A stretch of DNA of 64,000 bases from Kofleriaceae bacterium (lineage in GTDB: Bacteria; Myxococcota_A; Polyangia; Haliangiales; Haliangiaceae). Location of the stretch: the NCBI GenBank assembly GCA_018057825.1, contig JAGPCY010000001.1, forward strand, positions 62,001 through 126,000, read 5' to 3'. The translations under genes and the position numbers were made by a program. Below the pieces are notes generated by a model. That model saw only the letters and a program-made list of their open reading frames with translations. It ran no database searches and was not told where the DNA came from. This document shows positions 3,866 to 16,701 of this stretch, one piece after another; position 1 is the first letter of the stretch; each line of letters opens with the position of its first letter.

Positions 3866-5992
3866 ATGCCTAGCTGGTGGCGGCGCCGCGCCCTCCGCCG
3901 CGCCGCGATCGCGGCCGCGGTGGTGGCGATCCTGGCGGTGGCCGCGGTCGTGGCCTACCCGCGGGTCGGCGCGTGGTACGTGCGGTCGCGCGCCGTGCCC
4001 CGGCTGGCCGAGCGCTACGGCGCCGCGGTCACGGTCGGCGCGGTCGACGTCGGCTGGGGCCACGCCACCCTGCGCGACGTCACGGTGGCGCCGCGCGGCG
4101 CCGCCCCGGCGATCCACCTCGGCCGGGTCGAGGTCGACTTCGATGGCCTCGCCACGCTGGTCGGCCGGGCCGAGGTGTCGCGGGTCGCGATCGTCGGCGG
4201 CGCGATCGAGGTGGTCCGCGGCGCCGACGGCGCGACCAACCTCGACGGCTTCCGGCGGCCGACCAGCGGCGGGGTCGGCGGCCGCCGTGGCAGCACCCCG
4301 ATCGACTTCTCCGGGTTGGCGGTCCGGTTCCGCGACGACGGCACCGGCGCCACCGGGTCGGCGACCCTGGCCGGGCGCCGGCGCGGCGATCGCCTCGAGG
4401 CCACGCTGACCGAGCTGGCGATGACCAGCGCCGACGGCCCGGCCCTGGCGGCGACCGCGGTCGTCGTCGAGCGCGAGGCCGGTCGCTTGGCCGCCACCGT
4501 CGACGGCGGCCAGCTCCAGATCTGGACCGGCCTGGCCCTGACCGGCATCGCCGGCACGATCGCCCAGGCCGCGACCCCGGGACAGCTCGCGGTCGATCTG
4601 ACCGGCGGCTACGGCGGCGTCGCCGGGACCCTGTGGACCGCCCGCGGCTGGGTCGAGCCCGCCACCGCCGCCGGCGAGGTCCGGATCAAGGCCGACGCGT
4701 TCTCGCTGGAGAAGCTGGCGCCGCTCCTCGAGGGCCGGCGCGTCCTGGTCAACTACCCGCGCACCGTGGTCGACGCCGATCTGGTGCTGGCCCGCCGCGG
4801 CGACGTCGCGACCATGCGCGGCGGCTTCCACGTCGCCGATCTCACCGTCGCCCACCCGATGATCGCCGATCAGCCGGTGGCGATCGAGTCGCTGTCGGGC
4901 GAGGTCGACGCCGCGTACGATCGCGCGACGCGGACCCTGACCCTGCGCCAGGGCGATCTCGGCACCCGCGGCCTGCCGTTCGGCCTGACCGGCGAGGCCG
5001 TGCTCGGGCCGCGCCTGCGGCCGACCAAGCTGGCCGGTCGGCTGGTGGTCCCGGCGGTGCCGTGTCAGCAGGTGCTGACCGCGCTGCCGGCCCAGCTCAC
5101 CGGCGAGATGACCGGCTTCGAGCTGACCGGGATGTTCTCGACCGATCTCCGGGTCGCGATCGACTGGGCCGACCTCGACGCCACCACCCTCGGCGGCTCG
5201 GTCGGGATCCGCGGCTGTAAGGCCCGGCGGGTGGCCAAGGCGGTCGAGCGGCTCGACGACAGCTTCGAGCACTGGGTCGAGGTCGGCACCGACGAGTGGC
5301 TGTCCTTCGAGGTCGGCGCCGGCAACCCCGACTTCGTGCCGATCACCGAGGTCTCGCCCTACCTCCTGGCCTCGCTGCAGACCACCGAGGACGGCGCCTT
5401 CTACCGCCACCGCGGCTTCATCCCCAGCGAGTTCCGCACCGCGCTCATCCGCAACCTCAAGGCCGGCGGGTTCCGCTACGGCGCGTCGTCGATCACCATG
5501 CAGATGGTGAAGAACGTGCTCCTGTACCGGAAGAAGACCCTGGCGCGGAAGTTCCAGGAGCTGTTCCTCACCTGGGCGGTCGAGAACTACCTGACCAAGG
5601 ATCGGATCTTCGAGATCTACGTGAACGCGATCGAGTACGGGCCTGCGCTCTACGGCATCGGCCCGGCCGCGCGCGCCTACTTCGGCAAGTCGGCCTCGGA
5701 CCTGACCCTGCGCGAGGCCGCGTTCTTCTCGTCGATCTTGCCCAACCCCAAGGAGCGCTACCGCCAGTACTGCAAGGGCGAGCTGCGCCGGTGGACCGAG
5801 GACAAGATCGGTCGGATCCTCGACAAGATGCTCGAGCGCCAGCGCATCACCGCGGCCGAGCACGCCGAGGCCAAGGCCAGCCCGCTGGTGTTCGCCAAGG
5901 ACGGCACCGAGACCGAGGCCCAGTGCCTGCGGCGGGTCGAGCAAGCCTTGAAGAAGGCCCGCCCGACCAACCCGATGGCGCCGCCGCGCTGA
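3866..5992 (+). CDS. AsmA-like/GT51 fusion: monofunctional peptidoglycan glycosyltransferase
   Basis: A 708-residue inner-membrane protein. Residues 13-35 form the membrane anchor. Residues ~40-450 are a long beta-rich region built from repeated amphipathic strands, as in AsmA/DUF748-type proteins. From about residue 480 there is a GT51 transglycosylase domain: TTEDGAFYRHRG carries the catalytic Glu (~507), GASSITMQMVKN is the second motif, RKFQELFLTWAVE the third, and KDRIFEIYVN and the second acidic motif follow. It polymerises lipid II into glycan strands; there is no transpeptidase domain, so it is not a class A PBP. The gene stands alone, with the same orientation as the sigma operon. 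The large N-terminal AsmA-like domain is unusual compared with MtgA (~240 residues). Confidence 0.85.
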   Translation: MPSWWRRRALRRAAIAAAVVAILAVAAVVAYPRVGAWYVRSRAVPRLAERYGAAVTVGAVDVGWGHATLRDVTVAPRGAAPAIHLGRVEVDFDGLATLVGRAEVSRVAIVGGAIEVVRGADGATNLDGFRRPTSGGVGGRRGSTPIDFSGLAVRFRDDGTGATGSATLAGRRRGDRLEATLTELAMTSADGPALAATAVVVEREAGRLAATVDGGQLQIWTGLALTGIAGTIAQAATPGQLAVDLTGGYGGVAGTLWTARGWVEPATAAGEVRIKADAFSLEKLAPLLEGRRVLVNYPRTVVDADLVLARRGDVATMRGGFHVADLTVAHPMIADQPVAIESLSGEVDAAYDRATRTLTLRQGDLGTRGLPFGLTGEAVLGPRLRPTKLAGRLVVPAVPCQQVLTALPAQLTGEMTGFELTGMFSTDLRVAIDWADLDATTLGGSVGIRGCKARRVAKAVERLDDSFEHWVEVGTDEWLSFEVGAGNPDFVPITEVSPYLLASLQTTEDGAFYRHRGFIPSEFRTALIRNLKAGGFRYGASSITMQMVKNVLLYRKKTLARKFQELFLTWAVENYLTKDRIFEIYVNAIEYGPALYGIGPAARAYFGKSASDLTLREAAFFSSILPNPKERYRQYCKGELRRWTEDKIGRILDKMLERQRITAAEHAEAKASPLVFAKDGTETEAQCLRRVEQALKKARPTNPMAPPR

Positions 5993-7830: not shown

Positions 7831-9651
7831 CTAGCGACCCTCGAGGATCTGCTTGATGGCGGTCGCGCGCTCCTGGGCGCGCTCGCGGCCGCCGAGCTCG
7901 GACAGGCGGGCCTGCTTCACGGGCGGCAGGAACTCGACGTCGGTGCACTCGATGATCGCGACCAGCTCCTGCAGCTCGCGCTCGAGGGTCTGGGTCGACG
8001 GCATGAAGTTGGCCAGCGCGGTGGCCAGGGCGTCCTTGGTGATGCGGTCGGCGCCGGCCAGGAGCGAGGTCCGCCAGGCCCGGCCGACGATGCCCTCGAT
8101 GTCGGCGCCCGACAGGTTGCCCTTGTGGGGCAGGGTCTCGGGCAGATCCTCGTCGAGGAGCGTGGCCCCGGCCTTCCTGGCGAGGACCTTCAGCATCTTG
8201 CGCAGCTCGTCGTCGTCGGTCGGATAGAACAGCGGGATGTGGACCTCGGCGCGGCCCTGGCGCTTGATGTCGATCGGCAACAGATCGGGGCGCGCGGTCA
8301 GGAGCATCCAGATGATCTTGCCGCGGTAGCGGGTGTCGCCCATCTGGTTGGCGATCATCCCGAAGATCCGCGCCGACACCCCGGAGTCGCCGCCCCCGGA
8401 GTCGCGATCGCCGAGCACGGTGTCGGCCTCGTCGATCACCACCACCACCGGGCCCATCGAGCGCAGGAGGCCCAGCACCCGCTCGAGGTTGCCCTCGGTC
8501 TCGCCGACGTACTTCGAGCGGAAGTTCTTGAGCACCACCGCCGGCACGCCGATCGAGCCGGCCACGCACTGGGCCAGAAACGACTTGCCGGTGCCGACCG
8601 GGCCGTTGAACAGGTAGCCCATCGGCACGGTGTCGGTGTGGCCCTTCTTGATCAGCGCGGCGTCGTCGAGGAGCCGGCGCTTGGCCGCTTCGTGGCCGAC
8701 CACGGTGTCGAGACCCCACTTGGGCTCGACGAACTCGAGCATGCCCTGGGCCTGGCGCTCGATCAGGCGCTTCTTCAGGTCGCGGAAGTAGGTGGCGTCG
8801 AGGCGGCGGCCGCTCTCGCGCGACGAGCGGATCAGGACCTCGAGATCGGTCAGCGCGATGCCGGCGGTCAGCTTGCCCAGCTCGGCGGTGCCGAAGTCCG
8901 AGAACGCCGCGACGTCGACGCCGCGGGTGGTCGCGGCCAGGAACGCCTCGCGCTCGCTGGCGTCGGGCATCGGCACCTCGATCGCGGCGACGTGGGGGTT
9001 GCCGGCCAGGCGGTCGTTGACCTCCGACAGCCGCGGGTCGATCAGCACGACCGCCAGGTTCAGGCGCTTGACGTAGGGCGACGACGCCCAGTTGAGCAGC
9101 GTCACGAGCTGGGTCTGATCGCCCAGGCTCAGGCGATCGCCCGACGGCGCCACGAACGAGGCGTGGTCGATCACGATCGCCGCCGACAGCCGCTTGTCGG
9201 CGTCGGCCATGACGTTCTTCTGGATGAACAGGTCGAGGGCGGCCAGCGCGGTCACCGGATCGCGCTTGAGCTGGCGGACGTCGCCCAGCACCCGGTTGAC
9301 CTTCTCGACCATGTCGGCCAGCCGCTTGGCGTTGGCGCCGGCCAGGCAGCGGATGCCGCGGGCCAGGTCGTAGTGGAGGAGGAGGTCCCAGCGCCCGAAG
9401 AGCTGCTCGGCGAGGAACTCGGCCAGGCCGCCCCAGCGGGTGTCGGCGGCCTCGGCCGGGCCGAGCCGGACCAGATCGAACACGTTGCCGTGCAGCACGA
9501 ACATCGACGTCGTGCCCGAGAAGTACAGCTCGGCCAGCTTGCCGGCCCACGGCGGGAAGTGGGACGGCAGCGCGCTGGTTCGGCGGACGCCGTCGGAGCC
9601 AGCCAGGGTCTTGTCGGCCGGGGCCGTGGGGGCGGTGGGTTCGGTGGTCAC
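7831..9651 (-). CDS. Classic AAA+ ATPase with degenerate N-terminal AAA-like half
   Basis: A 606-residue ATPase. Residues ~40-270 resemble a nucleotide-binding domain without a Walker A (FVLHGNVFDLV near 51-61 and IVIDHASF near 159-166). Residues ~310-560 are a full AAA domain: Walker A GPVGTGKS at 350-357, pore-loop-like SKYVGETEGN near 379-388, Walker B VVVVIDEAD near 402-410, an LLTARPDLLPIDIKRQGR sensor/Arg-finger region, and a helical lid with a GADIEGIVGRA segment. The aromatic-V-G pore loop followed by ETE is the pattern of protein-threading classic AAA enzymes such as Vps4. The GTG start overlaps the stop of the coiled-coil membrane gene. Context suggests it remodels a complex that includes PspA; that is inference. 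Confidence 0.85.
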   Translation of the reverse strand: MTTEPTAPTAPADKTLAGSDGVRRTSALPSHFPPWAGKLAELYFSGTTSMFVLHGNVFDLVRLGPAEAADTRWGGLAEFLAEQLFGRWDLLLHYDLARGIRCLAGANAKRLADMVEKVNRVLGDVRQLKRDPVTALAALDLFIQKNVMADADKRLSAAIVIDHASFVAPSGDRLSLGDQTQLVTLLNWASSPYVKRLNLAVVLIDPRLSEVNDRLAGNPHVAAIEVPMPDASEREAFLAATTRGVDVAAFSDFGTAELGKLTAGIALTDLEVLIRSSRESGRRLDATYFRDLKKRLIERQAQGMLEFVEPKWGLDTVVGHEAAKRRLLDDAALIKKGHTDTVPMGYLFNGPVGTGKSFLAQCVAGSIGVPAVVLKNFRSKYVGETEGNLERVLGLLRSMGPVVVVIDEADTVLGDRDSGGGDSGVSARIFGMIANQMGDTRYRGKIIWMLLTARPDLLPIDIKRQGRAEVHIPLFYPTDDDELRKMLKVLARKAGATLLDEDLPETLPHKGNLSGADIEGIVGRAWRTSLLAGADRITKDALATALANFMPSTQTLERELQELVAIIECTDVEFLPPVKQARLSELGGRERAQERATAIKQILEGR

Positions 9652-10541
9652 GAGGCCTCGGTGACGTCGGTGGTGAGGATCGACGGCGCGTCCTCGCGCT
9701 CGGACAGGCCGGTGATCGACTGCAGCTCGCGGATCGTCTCCTCGGTCTGCGACATGCCGGCGGCGACCGCGTCGACCTGGATCGACAGCTCGTCGGGGTT
9801 CTGGTGGCTGATCGCCATCTCGGTCAGGGCCTGGATCTTCGACTCGATGCGGTCGAGCTCGATGGTCACGAACTCGGCGTTGTTCTTGGCCTTGTTGTAG
9901 TTGTCGAGGCGGAGCTGGGCGGTCGCGACCGAGTCGACCAGCGACCGCAAGATGCGCTCGTCGCCCCGGGTCTCGGCCTCCTTCTGGCGCGCGGTCAGCT
10001 CGTCGAGCTGGCGCTGGATGCCGGCGCCGTCGGCGGCGCGCAGGAACCGGCCCAGGGCCTGCTGCGACAGGAGCAGCCGCAGGAACACCCACAGCAGGCG
10101 ATCGAGGGCCGGGGTCCGCAGCTCGTGGGCCGCGCCCGAGGCGTCGCGGGTGTCGCCGCGGACCGCGTTGGCGATGCGCTGCATCTCGACGCAGCGCGCG
10201 CGCAGCCGCAGGAAGCGGTTGCGCCGATCGGCCTCGAGGGAGCCCAGGGTGTCGGCCAGGCGCTGGCGCGCGCTCTGGCGATCGCCGGAGAACGCCGCGG
10301 CGGCGTCGGCGCCGCGCTCCTCGCGCCGGGCCTTGGCGTCGATCGCGGCCTGGAACCGCGGCAGGGTCGTGAGGCCGGCCAGGTAGGCCAGCTCGCCGGC
10401 GGCGACCAAGGGCAGCGCGACGTCGGGCCGCCCGGAGATCACCGCCGCCGCGGTGGCGCCGCCGAAGATGAGCAGGTTCCACCGGTAGGTGAAGGCCTCC
10501 TTCAGGTACCGCAGCCAGCCGGCCTTCTTCTTGCCCGACAT
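9648..10541 (-). CDS. Two-TM inner-membrane protein with cytoplasmic coiled coil
   Basis: A 297-residue protein. A basic amphipathic N-terminus (GKKKAGWLRYLKEAF) leads into two closely spaced hydrophobic helices at about 22-37 and 43-60. The remaining ~230 residues are soluble, charged and mostly helical, with long heptad stretches (RQLDELTARQKEAETRG; QLRLDNYNKAKNNAEF), indicating a coiled coil that probably faces the cytoplasm. The ATG overlaps the stop of the ABC ATPase gene, and its own stop overlaps the GTG of the AAA+ gene. It is a good candidate for the membrane receptor linking PspA, the ABC transporter and the AAA+ enzyme. I know of no named family for it. Confidence 0.8.
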   Translation of the reverse strand: MSGKKKAGWLRYLKEAFTYRWNLLIFGGATAAAVISGRPDVALPLVAAGELAYLAGLTTLPRFQAAIDAKARREERGADAAAAFSGDRQSARQRLADTLGSLEADRRNRFLRLRARCVEMQRIANAVRGDTRDASGAAHELRTPALDRLLWVFLRLLLSQQALGRFLRAADGAGIQRQLDELTARQKEAETRGDERILRSLVDSVATAQLRLDNYNKAKNNAEFVTIELDRIESKIQALTEMAISHQNPDELSIQVDAVAAGMSQTEETIRELQSITGLSEREDAPSILTTDVTEAS

Positions 10542-11701
10542 CAGTCGCCGCTCCGCTGCGACGACTCCAGTCGCTCGATGATGTCCTTGATGCCGTACAC
10601 CGTCTCCTGGAACGCCGGGTCGCGCATCATCTCCTTGGCCGGCTTGTCGGGCGGCGCGATCTTGACCTCCTTCAGGATCGTCCCCGGGGACGACGAGAAG
10701 ATCAGCAGGTGATCGCCCAGGTAGACCGCCTCCTCGACCGAGTGGGTGATGAAGAACACCGTCGGCGACTGCTCGCGCCACAGCTCGATCAAGAGGTCCT
10801 GCATGCGGGCGCGGGTCGGCGGATCGAGCGCGCCGAACGGCTCGTCCATCAGGATGATCTTGGGCTCGAGGATGAGGGTGCGGGCGATCGCCACCCGCTG
10901 GCGCATGCCGCCCGACAGCTCGCTCGGGTACTTGTGGGCGTCCTTCTTGGGCGACAGCCCGACCTTCCCCAGCCAGACCATGGCGCGGTCGAGGCGCTCG
11001 CCCTTGGCGACGCCGCGGCACTCCAGGCCAAAGGCGATGTTCTCGAGGACGGTGCGGTGATCGAAGGAGGTGTAGTCCTGAAACACCATCCCGCGGTCGG
11101 CGCCCGGGCCGCGCACGACCTGGCCGCCGACCAGGACCGTGCCCGAGGTCTGGGGGAACTGCGGCGCCAGCCCGGCGATCATTCGGATCACCGTCGACTT
11201 GCCGCAGCCCGACGGCCCGAGGATCGGCACCATCTCGCCGCGCCCCGGGTGATCGTCGATCCGGAAGCTGACGTCCTTGATGGCGGTGAATTTGCCGTAG
11301 CTCTTGGTGACCCGGTCGAAGACCACGACCGGGGTCGGCGTGGCCGGGGCCAGCGGGGCCAGGCGGGTGCCGCCGCTGACCCGCGGCGCGGCCCGCTCGG
11401 CGGTCGGCTTGGCCGGCGTCACCGGCGCAGGCGCGGGCCCGGCGCCGCCCAGGCGGGGCGTCGGCGCGGCCTCGGGCTTGGCGGCCGAGCTGGCGGCTAG
11501 CTCGCGTTCGAGGTCGCGCAGCGCGGCCTCGGCGGCGACCGGATCGATCGGCGCGGCCTTGGCCTCAGGGGCGGCGCCAGCCGTCGGCGTGCCAGCCGTC
11601 GGCGTGCCAGCCGTCGGCGTGCCAGCCGTCGGCGTGCCAGGCGTCGGCGCGCCAGGCGTCGGCGTTGCGGACGTGGGCGGATCGTCGTCGGCGGCGCTCA
11701 C
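10541..11701 (-). CDS. ABC transporter ATP-binding protein, nitrate/sulfonate/taurine type
   Basis: A 386-residue ATPase subunit of an importer. The C-terminal ~260 residues are a standard ABC domain: Walker A GPSGCGKST (~161), Q-loop VFQDYTSFDHRTV, signature LSGGMRQRVAIARTL (~260), Walker B IILMDEPFGALD and the H-loop FFITHSVEEAV. This is the TauB/SsuB/NrtD group. Unusually, the first ~125 residues are a low-complexity Ala/Pro/Thr tail containing six 15-nt repeats encoding TAGTP. The GTG start lies 1 nt after the permease stop. The gene ends in an ATGA overlap with the coiled-coil membrane gene. It powers the permease encoded just upstream. Confidence 0.92.
   Translation of the reverse strand: MSAADDDPPTSATPTPGAPTPGTPTAGTPTAGTPTAGTPTAGAAPEAKAAPIDPVAAEAALRDLERELAASSAAKPEAAPTPRLGGAGPAPAPVTPAKPTAERAAPRVSGGTRLAPLAPATPTPVVVFDRVTKSYGKFTAIKDVSFRIDDHPGRGEMVPILGPSGCGKSTVIRMIAGLAPQFPQTSGTVLVGGQVVRGPGADRGMVFQDYTSFDHRTVLENIAFGLECRGVAKGERLDRAMVWLGKVGLSPKKDAHKYPSELSGGMRQRVAIARTLILEPKIILMDEPFGALDPPTRARMQDLLIELWREQSPTVFFITHSVEEAVYLGDHLLIFSSSPGTILKEVKIAPPDKPAKEMMRDPAFQETVYGIKDIIERLESSQRSGD
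11576..11665 (-). repeat. Tandem 15-bp coding repeat (six units)
   Basis: Six head-to-tail copies of gccagccgtcggcgt; the first four are identical and the last two vary. On the minus strand they encode the TAGTP/GAPTPGTP tract near the N-terminus of the ABC ATPase. The perfect units suggest recent slippage, so the tail length may differ between strains. Confidence 0.9.
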
Positions 11702-11702
11702 G

Positions 11703-12548
11703 TCAGAGGTCCTTCCGGTAGTGGAAAAACGCGCGCTGCAAGAAGCGCAGCGTCCAGTCGATCGCGAAGGCCAGGAGCGCGATCACGAACAGCATGAGGT
11801 AGGCGGTGGCCTGCCCGAAGCGCTCGTTGTTGTTGATGAGCGCACCCAGGCCGGCCCGGACGTTGATGGCCTCGACCAGGGCGATGTAGCCGAAGGCCAG
11901 GCCGAACAGGAAGCGCAGGCTGGTGACGATGTCGGGCAGGGCCAGGGGGAACAGGACCTTGGTGATGATCTGGAACCGGCTGGCGCCCAGGGTCTGGGCG
12001 GTCTCGACGAAGCGCTCGGGCACGAGCGCGATCGTCCGCACCGTGTCGGTGAAGACGAACGGCACGGTCGCGAAGAAGATGAACATCACCATGCGCTTCT
12101 CGCCGATGCCGAAGAACATGAACGTCACCGGCACCAGCACGCTCACCGGCACGCTGCGGCCGAAGATCACCAGCGGCTGAAAGAACGCGGCGACGCCGCG
12201 GAACGACCCGGCGATCGTCCCGAGGCCAACCCCGACCACGGTCGCCAGGGCGAAGCCCTTGAGCACCCGCCACAGCGAGGCGATCACGCTGTCGGCGAGG
12301 ATGCCGTCGGGCAGGCGGTCGAGGGCGGCCCACACCTCGCCCGGGCTGGGCATCTTGGCCGGCCCGACGATGCGCTCGACCACCGGCCCGCGGGTGACGA
12401 ACCACCACACGCCGAAAAGCAGCGCCACGCACGCCAACCCGAGCAGCTTGCCGATCACGCTCGGCGGCTCGGCGCGCAAGGTCGCGTACCACGGGCGCGG
12501 CCGCGGGATCGCGGCGGTCGCGGTCGCGGGCGTCGGCGTGTCGCTCAC
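11703..12548 (-). CDS. ABC transporter permease, nitrate/sulfonate/taurine type
   Basis: A 281-residue inner-membrane permease of the binding-protein-dependent transport family (BPD_transp_1, SsuC/TauC group). It has about six membrane helices, the first at ~37-52. The cytoplasmic coupling helix carries the conserved EAA-type motif (TAQTLGASRFQIITKVLFP). The conserved LVEAINVRAGLGALI stretch near the C-terminus is typical of the TauC/SsuC group. The GTG start overlaps the stop of the substrate-binding/OmpA gene (GTGA). With the adjacent ATPase and the tethered binding domain it forms one importer; the substrate is not evident from sequence. Confidence 0.92.
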   Translation of the reverse strand: MSDTPTPATATAAIPRPRPWYATLRAEPPSVIGKLLGLACVALLFGVWWFVTRGPVVERIVGPAKMPSPGEVWAALDRLPDGILADSVIASLWRVLKGFALATVVGVGLGTIAGSFRGVAAFFQPLVIFGRSVPVSVLVPVTFMFFGIGEKRMVMFIFFATVPFVFTDTVRTIALVPERFVETAQTLGASRFQIITKVLFPLALPDIVTSLRFLFGLAFGYIALVEAINVRAGLGALINNNERFGQATAYLMLFVIALLAFAIDWTLRFLQRAFFHYRKDL

Positions 12549-14290
12549 TGCGCCTCGGCCGGCACCACCCGCACCTCGACCCGCCGGTTCTTGGCGTGGT
12601 TGCCGGGATCGTTGGGATCAGCCGGGCTGTCCCAGCCCTTGCCCTCGACGGAGAACTGGTTGGGCGGGAGCTGGAACTTCTTGATCAGCGCCTCCTTGAC
12701 CGCGTTGGCGCGATCCTCGGACAGCTTCTTCACCAGGCCGGGGTCGGCCTGGCCCTTCATCGAGCCGTCGGTGTGGCCCTGGATCAGGATGCGCGCCGCG
12801 CCGTACTGCTTGCTGACCTTGGCGATCTCCTCGACGACGAAGTCGACGTTCGGGTCGTACAGGCCCTCGGTGGGCTCGCCGTTGGCGCCGCGCTTCTCGA
12901 CCTTCTTGTACAGATCGGCCGAGTTGGGGAAGAACTGCACGACGACGGTCTTGGTCAGGATCGTCGACTCGACCGGGATCTGCGAGGCCGCGACCGGCGC
13001 GAAGGTGACCTCGTACTCATTGCGCTGCTTGGCGTACTTCTCCTCGGCGCCCAGCTTCTTGATGAACGAGAAGTCCATGATCTGGTCGAACTCGACCTTG
13101 TTGGACAGCACGCCGACCGCCTTGTAGAGCAGGAAGGCGGTGTTGTAGGTCCGCTCGAAGTTGGTCGGGTTGTTCTGGTTCAGGAAGAACTCGCGGTTCT
13201 CGGCGTAGTTGGTCCAGTGGGCGTCGGCCAGCATGCCCAGGGTCTCGTCGGCCGGGATGCCGAAGCCGTCGCTCATCCACTTGGCGACCTGCTGCTTGGC
13301 GGCGTCGTCCTTGAGCGCGGTGGTGGCGTCGAGGATGCCGCGGACCAGGCCCTCGATGATCTCGGGGTTGTCGCGGGCGAAGTCGGCGCGGGCCCACCAC
13401 ACGTCGGCGATCAGGTGGTTGGCCTGGAGGGTCGAGACCAACAGCTCGTTGCCCGGCAGCTTCTCGGCGATGCGGTAGATGTCGGGCGCCCACGACACCA
13501 CGGCGGCGATGTCCTTCTGGGTCGCGTAGGCGCGCGCCGCCTCGAACGCGGTCTTGGTGAAGATCATCTCGACCTCGTCGGGCTGAACGCCGCCGTTCAG
13601 GAGCGCGTTCAGGAGGAAGTAGTGCGACGGCGAGTTCTGGGCCAGGACGACCTTCTTGCCGCGCAGGTCGGCGATCTTCAGGCCCTTGCGGACGACGATG
13701 CCGTCGCCGCCGTTGGACCAGTCGACCTGGTGGAAGACCCGCGGCATGGTCCGCGGATCGACCTTCAGGCCCTCGATGAGGAGCGGCAACATGTCGACGG
13801 TGGCCCAGCCGATGTGGACCTCGCCCGAGGCGACGACGTTGCGCATGTCGACCGGGTTGTCGGCCAGGACCAGCTCGACCTTGAACGGGTTGCCCTTGGC
13901 GTCCTTCCACTCCTTCTTGGCCTTCATGCCCTCGTTGGCGTAGATGATCGGCGCCCAGCCGGCCCAGACGTTGATCGCGAACTTGACGACGCGATCCTTG
14001 CCCAGGGCCTTGTAGTCGGAGGTGCCGGGCACCGGCGGCAGCTTCTGCGCGGCCTCGAAGGTGTACTCCTTGACCGTGGTGACGCCGTTGATGTCGTCCA
14101 TCTCGGCCGCGGTCGGGGTCCCGGCCTGCTGCTTGATCTCGTTGATGTCGACCTTGGCCGAGCCGGCGCCACCGGTGTTCTTGGGCTTCGACTTCGACGA
14201 GCCGCGCATGATCGCGAACCCGACCAGGCCGAGGATGACGACGACGACGGCGATGAAGAATGCGGGCTTCGGCTTACCAGACTGCGCCAT
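12545..14290 (-). CDS. Membrane-anchored substrate-binding protein fused to OmpA domain
   Basis: A 581-residue protein. Residues ~10-28 form an uncleaved anchor (FFIAVVVVILGLVGFAIM). Residues ~90-420 are a periplasmic substrate-binding domain of the NMT1/SsuA/TauA type, beginning FAINVWAGWAPIIYANEGM. The last ~135 residues are an OmpA-like peptidoglycan-binding domain with the typical ILIQGHTDGS, LSEDRANAVKEAL and NRRVEVRV motifs. The chain therefore reaches from inner membrane to cell wall. The ATG at 14290 is chosen over an in-frame start at 14329 because it has an ideal AAGGAGAG site and a short leader. It lies 54 nt downstream of pspA, and its stop overlaps the permease start. I recall similar fusions annotated in other environmental bacteria. 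Confidence 0.9.
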   Translation of the reverse strand: MAQSGKPKPAFFIAVVVVILGLVGFAIMRGSSKSKPKNTGGAGSAKVDINEIKQQAGTPTAAEMDDINGVTTVKEYTFEAAQKLPPVPGTSDYKALGKDRVVKFAINVWAGWAPIIYANEGMKAKKEWKDAKGNPFKVELVLADNPVDMRNVVASGEVHIGWATVDMLPLLIEGLKVDPRTMPRVFHQVDWSNGGDGIVVRKGLKIADLRGKKVVLAQNSPSHYFLLNALLNGGVQPDEVEMIFTKTAFEAARAYATQKDIAAVVSWAPDIYRIAEKLPGNELLVSTLQANHLIADVWWARADFARDNPEIIEGLVRGILDATTALKDDAAKQQVAKWMSDGFGIPADETLGMLADAHWTNYAENREFFLNQNNPTNFERTYNTAFLLYKAVGVLSNKVEFDQIMDFSFIKKLGAEEKYAKQRNEYEVTFAPVAASQIPVESTILTKTVVVQFFPNSADLYKKVEKRGANGEPTEGLYDPNVDFVVEEIAKVSKQYGAARILIQGHTDGSMKGQADPGLVKKLSEDRANAVKEALIKKFQLPPNQFSVEGKGWDSPADPNDPGNHAKNRRVEVRVVPAEAQ

Positions 14291-14344
14291 GACGCTCTCC
14301 TTGCGGGCCCCGGGGCCCGGCTGACACATCGACCAGGGACAGGA

Positions 14345-15097
14345 CTACTTCTCGGTCTCGAGGCTGCGCTCGGCGGGGCCGAGATCCTTCTGCGCCTCGA
14401 CCACCGGCGTGACCTCGGGCGCGCGCATGCCGAGCGACACCTCGAGATCCTTCAAGGCGTCCTCGGCCATCGACTTCTCCATCCGCTCCTCGGCGTCGAT
14501 GTCGGCGATGCCCTGCTGCGACAGATCGGACGCGACCCGGGCCTTGCCGCGGTTGGCGTCGATCTTGCCCTGGATCACCTGCTCGAGCTGGCCGAAGTCG
14601 GTGGTCACGTTCAGGTCGAAGCTCTGGGACAGCTTGGCGACCTCGGCCTCGGCCTCGGACATCTTCAGCTCGGCGTCGTACTGCTGAATCTTCGACTTGA
14701 CCTCGGCCAGCTTCTTGTTGGCGTGCTGGATCTTCTTCAGGTTGTTCTGGTACGCGCCCTCGTGCATGGCGAGCTGTTGCTTGTTCTGCTCGAGCTGGCC
14801 CTTGGCCTTCTGCAGCTCGAGGGCGAACTTGGCGGCGGTCGCGCGGTCGCCCGCCTTCAGGTAGGCCTTGGCCTGGGCCTCGAGCTTGCCGGCGTGGGCC
14901 TCGCCGTCCTTGACCTGGCGGGCCACCCGCTCGACCAGCCCGCGGTACTGCTCGAGCCCGACCCGGCCCTCCTTGAGCTGCTCGACCGCGCTGTCGTACT
15001 CGTATTGCATCTGGGCGATCGGGTCGGCCTCCCAGAAGAAGTTGGCCAGCTTGTTCAGCTGAGCGCGCAGAGCACTGAACATCTTTCCGAAGATCAT
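14345..15097 (-). CDS. pspA: PspA/IM30 (ESCRT-III-fold) family protein
   Basis: A 250-residue, almost wholly alpha-helical coiled-coil protein. The amphipathic N-terminus (MIFGKMFSALRAQLNKLANFF-like start) followed by DPIAQMQYEYDSAVEQLKEG is the typical helix 1-2 region. Helices of 40-60 residues rich in Glu, Lys, Ala and Gln follow to ~200, then a less ordered tail. Size and pattern match PspA/Vipp1 proteins, which coat and repair the cytoplasmic membrane. The start has a GGGGAG site 8 nt upstream. It is the first gene of the minus-strand run that holds the ABC transporter and AAA+ ATPase. No pspF, pspB or pspC is visible in the window, so its regulation differs from that of enteric bacteria. 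Confidence 0.88.
   Translation of the reverse strand: MIFGKMFSALRAQLNKLANFFWEADPIAQMQYEYDSAVEQLKEGRVGLEQYRGLVERVARQVKDGEAHAGKLEAQAKAYLKAGDRATAAKFALELQKAKGQLEQNKQQLAMHEGAYQNNLKKIQHANKKLAEVKSKIQQYDAELKMSEAEAEVAKLSQSFDLNVTTDFGQLEQVIQGKIDANRGKARVASDLSQQGIADIDAEERMEKSMAEDALKDLEVSLGMRAPEVTPVVEAQKDLGPAERSLETEK

Positions 15098-16434: not shown

Positions 16435-16701
<267 letters not shown>

Follow-up and report, generated by a model that had tools for sequence, protein, structure and literature searches.

An operon joining PspA, a Cdc48-like tandem AAA ATPase and a TauABC-type importer: a candidate ESCRT-III remodelling module of bacteria

The six-gene operon described here probably encodes an ATP-driven bacterial ESCRT-III module, in which a Vps4-analogous AAA ATPase would remodel PspA by gripping its C-terminal tail and a coiled-coil membrane protein (CC) would couple the pair to an envelope-spanning ABC importer. 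More tentatively, and with somewhat less confidence, the AAA protein may be a dedicated bacterial ESCRT-III remodelling ATPase, a Cdc48-like tandem that reads a linear motif in the PspA C-terminus (K-x-LGP or K-x-hydrophobic-COOH). It would then be a functional equivalent of Vps4/MIM in which both the AAA architecture and the motif differ, the full form of the system being wired to an ABC importer that reaches from the inner membrane to peptidoglycan. The kinship of PspA and Vipp1 with ESCRT-III is accepted. If the AAA protein acts on PspA via the tail, bacteria have an analogous version of the ESCRT-III/AAA partnership. Two purified proteins and one short peptide would be enough to test the idea.

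The window, the whole stretch of 64,000 nucleotides from a Kofleriaceae bacterium that was analyzed, contains the operon on its minus strand at positions 7831–15097 (Table 1). The coordinates and all six open reading frames were confirmed, in agreement with a first-pass annotation that had described six genes on one strand joined by short gaps or overlaps. Read from the sequence, the junctions are a 54-nt gap (pspA/SBP), a GTGA overlap (SBP/permease), a 1-nt gap (permease/ABC ATPase), a TGATG overlap (ABC ATPase/CC) and a second GTGA overlap (CC/AAA); the earlier wording of ATGA/GTGA overlaps is therefore nearly right. Sigma-54-like sites with at most two mismatches occur 12 times in the window, against 12.7 expected, and none of these matches lies upstream of pspA. 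A sigma-54 promoter there, of the kind found in PspF systems, was rejected.

Table 1 Genes of the operon, with coordinates in the window.
Gene and product	Position	Strand	Evidence
pspA: PspA/IM30 family (ESCRT-III superfamily), 250 aa	14345..15097	-	Pfam PF04012 54.7 bits
SBP-OmpA: NMT1/SsuA/TauA-type substrate-binding protein with a TM anchor at the N-terminus and an OmpA peptidoglycan-binding domain at the C-terminus, 581 aa	12545..14290	-	Pfam OmpA 49.2, NMT1 30.3 bits
ABC permease, TauC/SsuC-like, 281 aa	11703..12548	-	Pfam BPD_transp_1 71.9 bits; nearest NCBIfam SaoP, TauC
ABC ATPase, TauB/SsuB/NrtC-like, 386 aa	10541..11701	-	Pfam ABC_tran 101 bits
CC: two short TM helices then helical coiled-coil region, 297 aa	9648..10541	-	AlphaFold model; no Pfam/NCBIfam family
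AAA: tandem AAA ATPase, 606 aa	7831..9651	-	Pfam AAA 76.9 bits; model; motifs in 69 homologues

The AAA protein models as a Cdc48-like tandem with a dead first domain (D1) and an active second domain (D2), not as a Vps4. The model (pLDDT 90.8) matches the folds of p97, Cdc48 and Rix7 across both domains. D1 (residues ~32–300) is degenerate, with HGNVxD where the P-loop is expected. D2 (residues ~300–606) carries a Walker A motif GPVGTGKS, a Walker B DE, arginine fingers and a K-Y-V-G pore loop, which bears out the YVG loop of the first-pass annotation. Across 69 homologues the P-loop, Walker B, arginine-finger and pore residues are invariant or nearly so and D1 lacks a P-loop; the pore aromatic is tyrosine in 55 sequences and tryptophan in 13. 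Pfam finds no MIT domain in the protein, and what the model shows at the N-terminus is a degenerate AAA domain that aligns with p97 D1. The Vps4 beta domain is absent from the small subdomain, the model showing no strand beyond residue 473. The name 'Vps4-like' given earlier thus survives as an analogy only.

Using the AAA protein alone as the query, 80 loci were gathered. Their same-strand companions include PspA in 54, SBP-OmpA in 54 and CC in 60, a linkage beyond chance; many of the remaining loci end at contig boundaries. The gene order is mostly the same, either PspA-SBP-PERM-ABC-CC-AAA or, in Planctomycetota, PspA-AAA-SBP-PERM-ABC-CC, and operon loci are labelled as belonging to about six phyla (Myxococcota, Acidobacteriota, Gemmatimonadota, Planctomycetota, Hydrogenedentota and Hinthialibacteria). 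Five genomes that yielded no CC contain stand-alone PspA-AAA dyads. The PspA-AAA pair is thus the core, and the dyad is the minimal form of the system. These dyads, which also lack the importer, argue against the view that the AAA protein serves the ABC importer or CC as a chaperone in assembly or quality control, with PspA only a membrane-protecting partner whose polymers it leaves untouched. That view is unlikely, although the AAA gene overlaps CC, lies furthest from pspA in most gene orders, and at one locus (L154) adjoins genes for an ABC ATPase and a binding protein with no PspA beside it; in Planctomycetota PspA directly precedes AAA, and distant AAA genomes retain a tail-conserved PspA while CC is undetected in most of them.

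PspA matches PF04012 over residues 1–218 (54.7 bits against a curated cut-off of 33.9). A profile of the operon PspAs gave no match among PDB sequences at E 0.001, which places operon PspA far from the solved PspA and Vipp1 sequences. The alignment of operon PspAs reveals a conserved tail motif, K-D-L-G-P-A, at residues 237–242. Flanked by variable stretches, K237, L239, G240 and P241 are kept in 34–36 of the 38 sequences, and K-x-LGP is present in most of them; the PspA of locus L138, which adjoins its AAA, keeps DLGPA at only 29% identity. Distant PspAs end in [KR]-x-[ILM]-COOH in 29/29 cases from AAA-bearing genomes vs 0/15 from AAA-less relatives, a contrast that amounts to roughly a single transition when placed on the PspA tree, so that its Fisher p of 4e-12 overstates it. 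The independent-contrast test of tail against AAA comprised one independent pair only and had no power. Among background open reading frames, 21/173 have [KR]-x-[ILM] C-termini. Direct alignment by hhalign failed between the distant PspA of locus L151 and the operon PspA profile; both match PF04012.

The tail could instead serve membrane or self-assembly functions. AAA unfoldases also read C-terminal tags of a general form like K-x-hydrophobic-COOH, and from this resemblance the tail could be taken as a degradation tag, by which the AAA protein would unfold PspA and pass it to a protease encoded elsewhere for turnover, rather than recycle it. This is improbable: the operon contains no protease gene, the AAA protein has no protease domain, and in the operon-type PspA the motif stops several residues short of the C-terminal end.

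The genes are also co-inherited. PspA is present in 7/68 Hydrogenedentota genomes; CC occurs in the same seven and a close AAA in six of them, the seventh having its operon interrupted by a contig end with no AAA seen. CC or a close AAA occurs in 0/61 Hydrogenedentota genomes without operon-type PspA. Three AAA-less genomes of two Myxococcota families (G044, G059 and G064; families f19 and f27) are also without any PspA, and six genomes with a solitary AAA all have PspA and CC elsewhere. PspA was not found in one AAA genome that is 85% complete (G123). One Myxococcota AAA subfamily adjoins rplU-rpmA-obgE and not PspA, as might be expected if this were an ordinary importer operon with pspA as an envelope-stress accessory, an unrelated house-keeping AAA and a merely historical linkage, but there is little to commend that reading when the gene sets are re-ordered yet intact in several phyla and the scattered genes are co-present in the same genomes, with shared absences. 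Synteny in many phyla, stand-alone dyads, co-inheritance and the conserved tail together support the first-pass placement of PspA and AAA in one functional unit.

The importer comprises an NMT1-type binding protein, a BPD permease and an ABC ATPase, a TauABC/SsuABC-type gene set by Pfam; its proteins do not reach NCBIfam equivalog cut-offs. An N-terminal hydrophobic segment that serves as a TM anchor was found in 49/49 binding proteins checked, as was an OmpA-like NRRVEV/I motif at the C-terminal end (49/49). In the ABC ATPase, a 15-bp tandem repeat at 11576–11665 codes for a PT-rich extension at the N-terminus. The importer may be tethered to peptidoglycan and CC may act as a receptor, as the first-pass annotation proposed.

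CC comprises TM helices at residues 20–35 and 39–58 followed by a coiled coil (AlphaFold model, pLDDT 87.5), and matches no family in Pfam or NCBIfam. Comparison of the CC and PspA profiles gave a probability of 0.1%. The 48-member CC alignment contains no Snf7 Pfam match, the Pfam matches there being stray, and a sequence search of the PDB returned weak matches. Foldseek with the CC model found nothing under E 0.001 (CdvB2 at 0.94). The VIA-align rows with Z scores of 7–9 do not rise above helical-bundle noise, as they mix unrelated coiled coils with BAR domains, Vipp1, PspA and Asgard ESCRT-IIIB; the matches to Vipp1, PspA and ESCRT-IIIB (Z 7–8) are tied with BAR domains. Homology of CC to ESCRT-III/Snf7 is not demonstrated by these comparisons.

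Members of the PspA family polymerize on the inner membrane, at its cytoplasmic face. In the module favored here, such a polymer would form on that side and the AAA protein, a putative threading ATPase in which one domain is dead and the other active, would grip the C-terminal tail of PspA (K-x-LGP in the operon form, K-x-hydrophobic-COOH in the distant form). It would thereby extract PspA subunits from the polymer, the job of Vps4 on ESCRT-III. CC, predicted to form a hairpin in the membrane and a coiled coil in the cytoplasm, may recruit PspA and AAA to the TauABC-like importer. The importer's binding protein would be held at one end by the inner membrane and at the other by peptidoglycan. 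Transport or the state of the envelope could in this way be coupled to local membrane remodelling.

The combination of genes, thought undescribed in the first-pass annotation, was already listed with the same parts by Ravi et al. 2024 (mSystems, PMC11237479), whose operons contain PspA, a 'Snf7 homologue' with a TM segment, a two-AAA-domain ATPase with an inactive N-terminal copy, an ABC ATPase, a permease and PBPB-OmpA (example OGG56892.1). The gene sets, compared by description, are the same, as is the arrangement of two AAA domains with the N-terminal one inactive, seen here by model and motif. Ravi et al. reached the proposal that the AAA protein remodels PspA independently, from operons, and called polymer disassembly unknown for PspAs without an AAA partner (PMC11237479). 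Their TM partner is called a Snf7 homologue, whereas for CC that kinship is the one left undemonstrated above. The PspA tail motif does not appear in the main text of their paper (PMC11237479). The conserved tail is an addition of the present analysis, as are the conservation across about six phyla, with the dyad as minimal form, the co-inheritance and the modelling of the AAA protein as a Cdc48-like tandem rather than a Vps4.

The pairing of an ESCRT-III-superfamily polymer former with a classical AAA ATPase resembles eukaryotic and archaeal ESCRT-III with Vps4/CdvC, and in both cases the polymer protein carries a short conserved C-terminal motif. Judged by its motifs, the operon AAA shares with Vps4 a classical AAA domain with active Walker A/B, arginine fingers and an aromatic pore loop. 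It differs from Vps4/CdvC in being a Cdc48-like tandem without MIT or beta domain, and the PspA tail motif looks unlike the MIM1 or MIM2 consensus. Cdc48/p97 and NVL/Rix7, the best full-length fold matches, share the tandem AAA domains, but the operon AAA lacks their N domain and its D1 has no P-loop.

The classical Psp systems (PspFABC, LiaIH, PspAMN) likewise have PspA as effector, but PspB, PspC, PspF, LiaF/I, PspM and PspN are absent from the six genes, which encode a transporter and a putative AAA remodeller instead. The importer shares its NMT1-type binding protein, BPD permease and ABC ATPase with TauABC, SsuABC and NrtABC, and differs from them in missing the equivalog cut-offs and in a binding protein that is anchored in the inner membrane and fused to an OmpA domain. 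In chloroplasts, Vipp1 is recycled by HSP70B-CDJ2-CGE1 (reviewed in PMC13051332). There a bacterial-type ESCRT-III protein is disassembled in an ATP-dependent manner, by an Hsp70 system rather than a dedicated AAA ATPase (PMC13051332).

The six open reading frames claimed by the first-pass annotation are present and tightly packed, encoding in order PspA, a substrate-binding protein fused to OmpA (SBP), a permease, an ABC ATPase, a two-TM coiled-coil protein (CC) and an AAA enzyme. All products except CC were assigned to Pfam families above curated cut-offs: PspA_IM30 for PspA, NMT1 with OmpA, BPD_transp_1 and ABC_tran for the importer proteins, and the AAA family for the enzyme. The annotation's interpretation, an AAA enzyme remodeling PspA in a module linked to the importer, was largely right in spirit; its impression that the combination was undescribed did not stand, as this comparative-genomics prediction is already published. 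Both the gene combination and the remodeling idea are found in Ravi et al. (2024; PMC11237479), matched by description (their accession OGG56892.1), where ATP-dependent membrane remodeling linked to solute transport is proposed. The conserved PspA tail, a motif not found in the main text of that paper, together with co-inheritance is the new, testable element here.

Coordinates of the operon and of associated features in the window and at other loci (L)
Sequence	Coordinates	Strand	Feature
Window	7831-15097	-	six-gene operon
Window	11576-11665		15-bp repeat, six copies, encoding the PTAGT repeat of the ABC ATPase N-terminal extension
Window	16435-16696		262-bp tandem repeat (6/12/18-bp GAGACC-type) within overlapping ORFs upstream of pspA
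Window	3866-5992	+	708-aa ORF past the operon end; by reading, a putative membrane-anchored peptidoglycan glycosyltransferase-like protein
L150	7828-8340		TerB-like gene ahead of the PspA-AAA pair
L151	7765-8256		TerB-like gene ahead of the PspA-AAA pair
L154	9348-14127		distant AAA adjoining ABC ATPase and NMT1-like lipoprotein without OmpA; no adjacent PspA

Searching one-per-species genomes with the AAA profile (alignment A1) yielded 80 loci, on which six protein profiles were then run. PspA and SBP-OmpA each accompany AAA at 54 loci, the permease at 52 and CC at 60. The exact gene order of the window recurs at 33 of the 80, with a few more showing this set with overlapping ORF calls, and the Planctomycetota order is PspA-AAA-SBP-permease-ABC-CC. 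The PspA-AAA dyad stands alone at five loci, in whose genomes CC was not found, which suggests that CC serves to couple the PspA-AAA core with the importer. At six loci AAA stands without any partner in its neighborhood; every one of those genomes encodes CC and PspA elsewhere. Genomes labeled Lysobacterales (Pseudomonadota; L058, L064 and L113) carry AAA at loci separate from PspA and CC, and in these the system outlives the break-up of the operon. Among 68 Hydrogenedentota genomes, window-type PspA occurs in seven, CC in the same seven and window-type AAA (E below 1e-90) in six of them; in the seventh, the contig ends ~800 bases beyond CC, in the direction in which AAA would be expected. None of the remaining genomes has window-type PspA, CC or a close AAA, and the AAA relatives that ten of them contain are more remote (E 1e-27 to 1e-46).

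The AAA family was detected in 36 of 141 Myxococcota genomes (E 1e-20), window-type PspA and CC being nearly restricted to G000, G009 and, with only a distant PspA, G124. In families f25, f3 and f7 (L150-L153), a distant PspA (PF04012 E 1e-16 to 1e-20) directly precedes AAA or CC-AAA, with the full importer set present once; the TerB-like gene may be a third regular partner in one family. A third group carries AAA by rplU-rpmA-obgE without adjacent PspA, which lies elsewhere in the genome. An AAA subfamily ~35% identical to the window AAA adjoins these genes at many of L139-L149 (families f12, f16, f19, f21, f24, f27 and f28), and at L142-L144 a neighboring product combines an N-terminal GRL...GxYxLxF-type stretch with a coiled coil. 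Three genomes from families of this group (G044, G059 and G064) have neither AAA nor any PF04012 match, and the 85%-complete G123 has AAA without PspA.

The operon PspAs (n = 38) comprise a helical core, a variable linker, a K-x-L-G-P tail (K 36/38, L 35/38, G 36/38, P 34/38) and further variable residues. The PspA adjoining AAA at L138 retains DLGPA despite 29% identity, and two more PspAs at other loci of the 8.9 Mb source genome differ at their C-termini. Distant PspAs of AAA-bearing genomes all end in [KR]-x-[ILM]-COOH (29/29; for example VKKTI, VKKTM, GGKSL and VKSM), a loose pattern that ~12% of background ORFs pass, as against 0/15 related PspAs from AAA-less genomes; this contrast amounts to about one evolutionary change, because the AAA-less rows form a single clade in the PspA-core tree. 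Ordinary PspAs, four of them from AAA-bearing genomes, also lack this terminus. The contrast draws its weight from the fixity of the tail over deep divergence while the preceding residues vary, also when AAA is encoded at another locus. AAA may grip PspA through this tail.

The AlphaFold model of the AAA enzyme is confident (alignment A4, 69 sequences; pLDDT 90.8). Taken together, the two halves match p97/Cdc48 and Rix7 in fold (Foldseek E 1e-20; VIA Z 22-24, ~460 residues), and the second half by itself matches Vps4, FIGL1 and p97 D2. In the second domain, the Walker A GK, Walker B DE and arginine-finger RxGR motifs are invariant and the pore loop reads Y/W-V-G. Since a conserved HGNV..D-type motif replaces the P-loop of the first domain, the MIT domain is absent and no strand follows residue 473, the expected place of the Vps4 beta domain, the enzyme is modeled as a tandem AAA protein with a dead first domain and not as a Vps4, and the label "Vps4-like" holds as an analogy only. 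The literature searched yielded no experimental work on this protein.

The importer ABC parts are closest to the TauABC/SsuABC/NrtABC type, with no equivalog cut-off reached. Every SBP inspected (n = 49) carries a hydrophobic segment at its N-terminus and terminates in an OmpA-type NRRVEV/I motif, and the SBP should thus span from the inner membrane to peptidoglycan. The CC model is all-helical (pLDDT 87.5): a pair of short membrane helices at the N-terminus precedes a long coiled coil. Judged from sequence, positive residues flanking this hairpin suggest a cytoplasmic location for both ends. Common descent of CC with PspA or ESCRT-III gained no support from any test run.

A structural study of PspA reports that it has weak ATPase activity itself, and names PspF, the AAA protein of some Psp systems, as dispensable for remodeling (PMC11746142). 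The chloroplast Vipp1 polymers are taken apart with Hsp70 chaperones (PMC13051332), whereas a dedicated AAA enzyme is proposed here.
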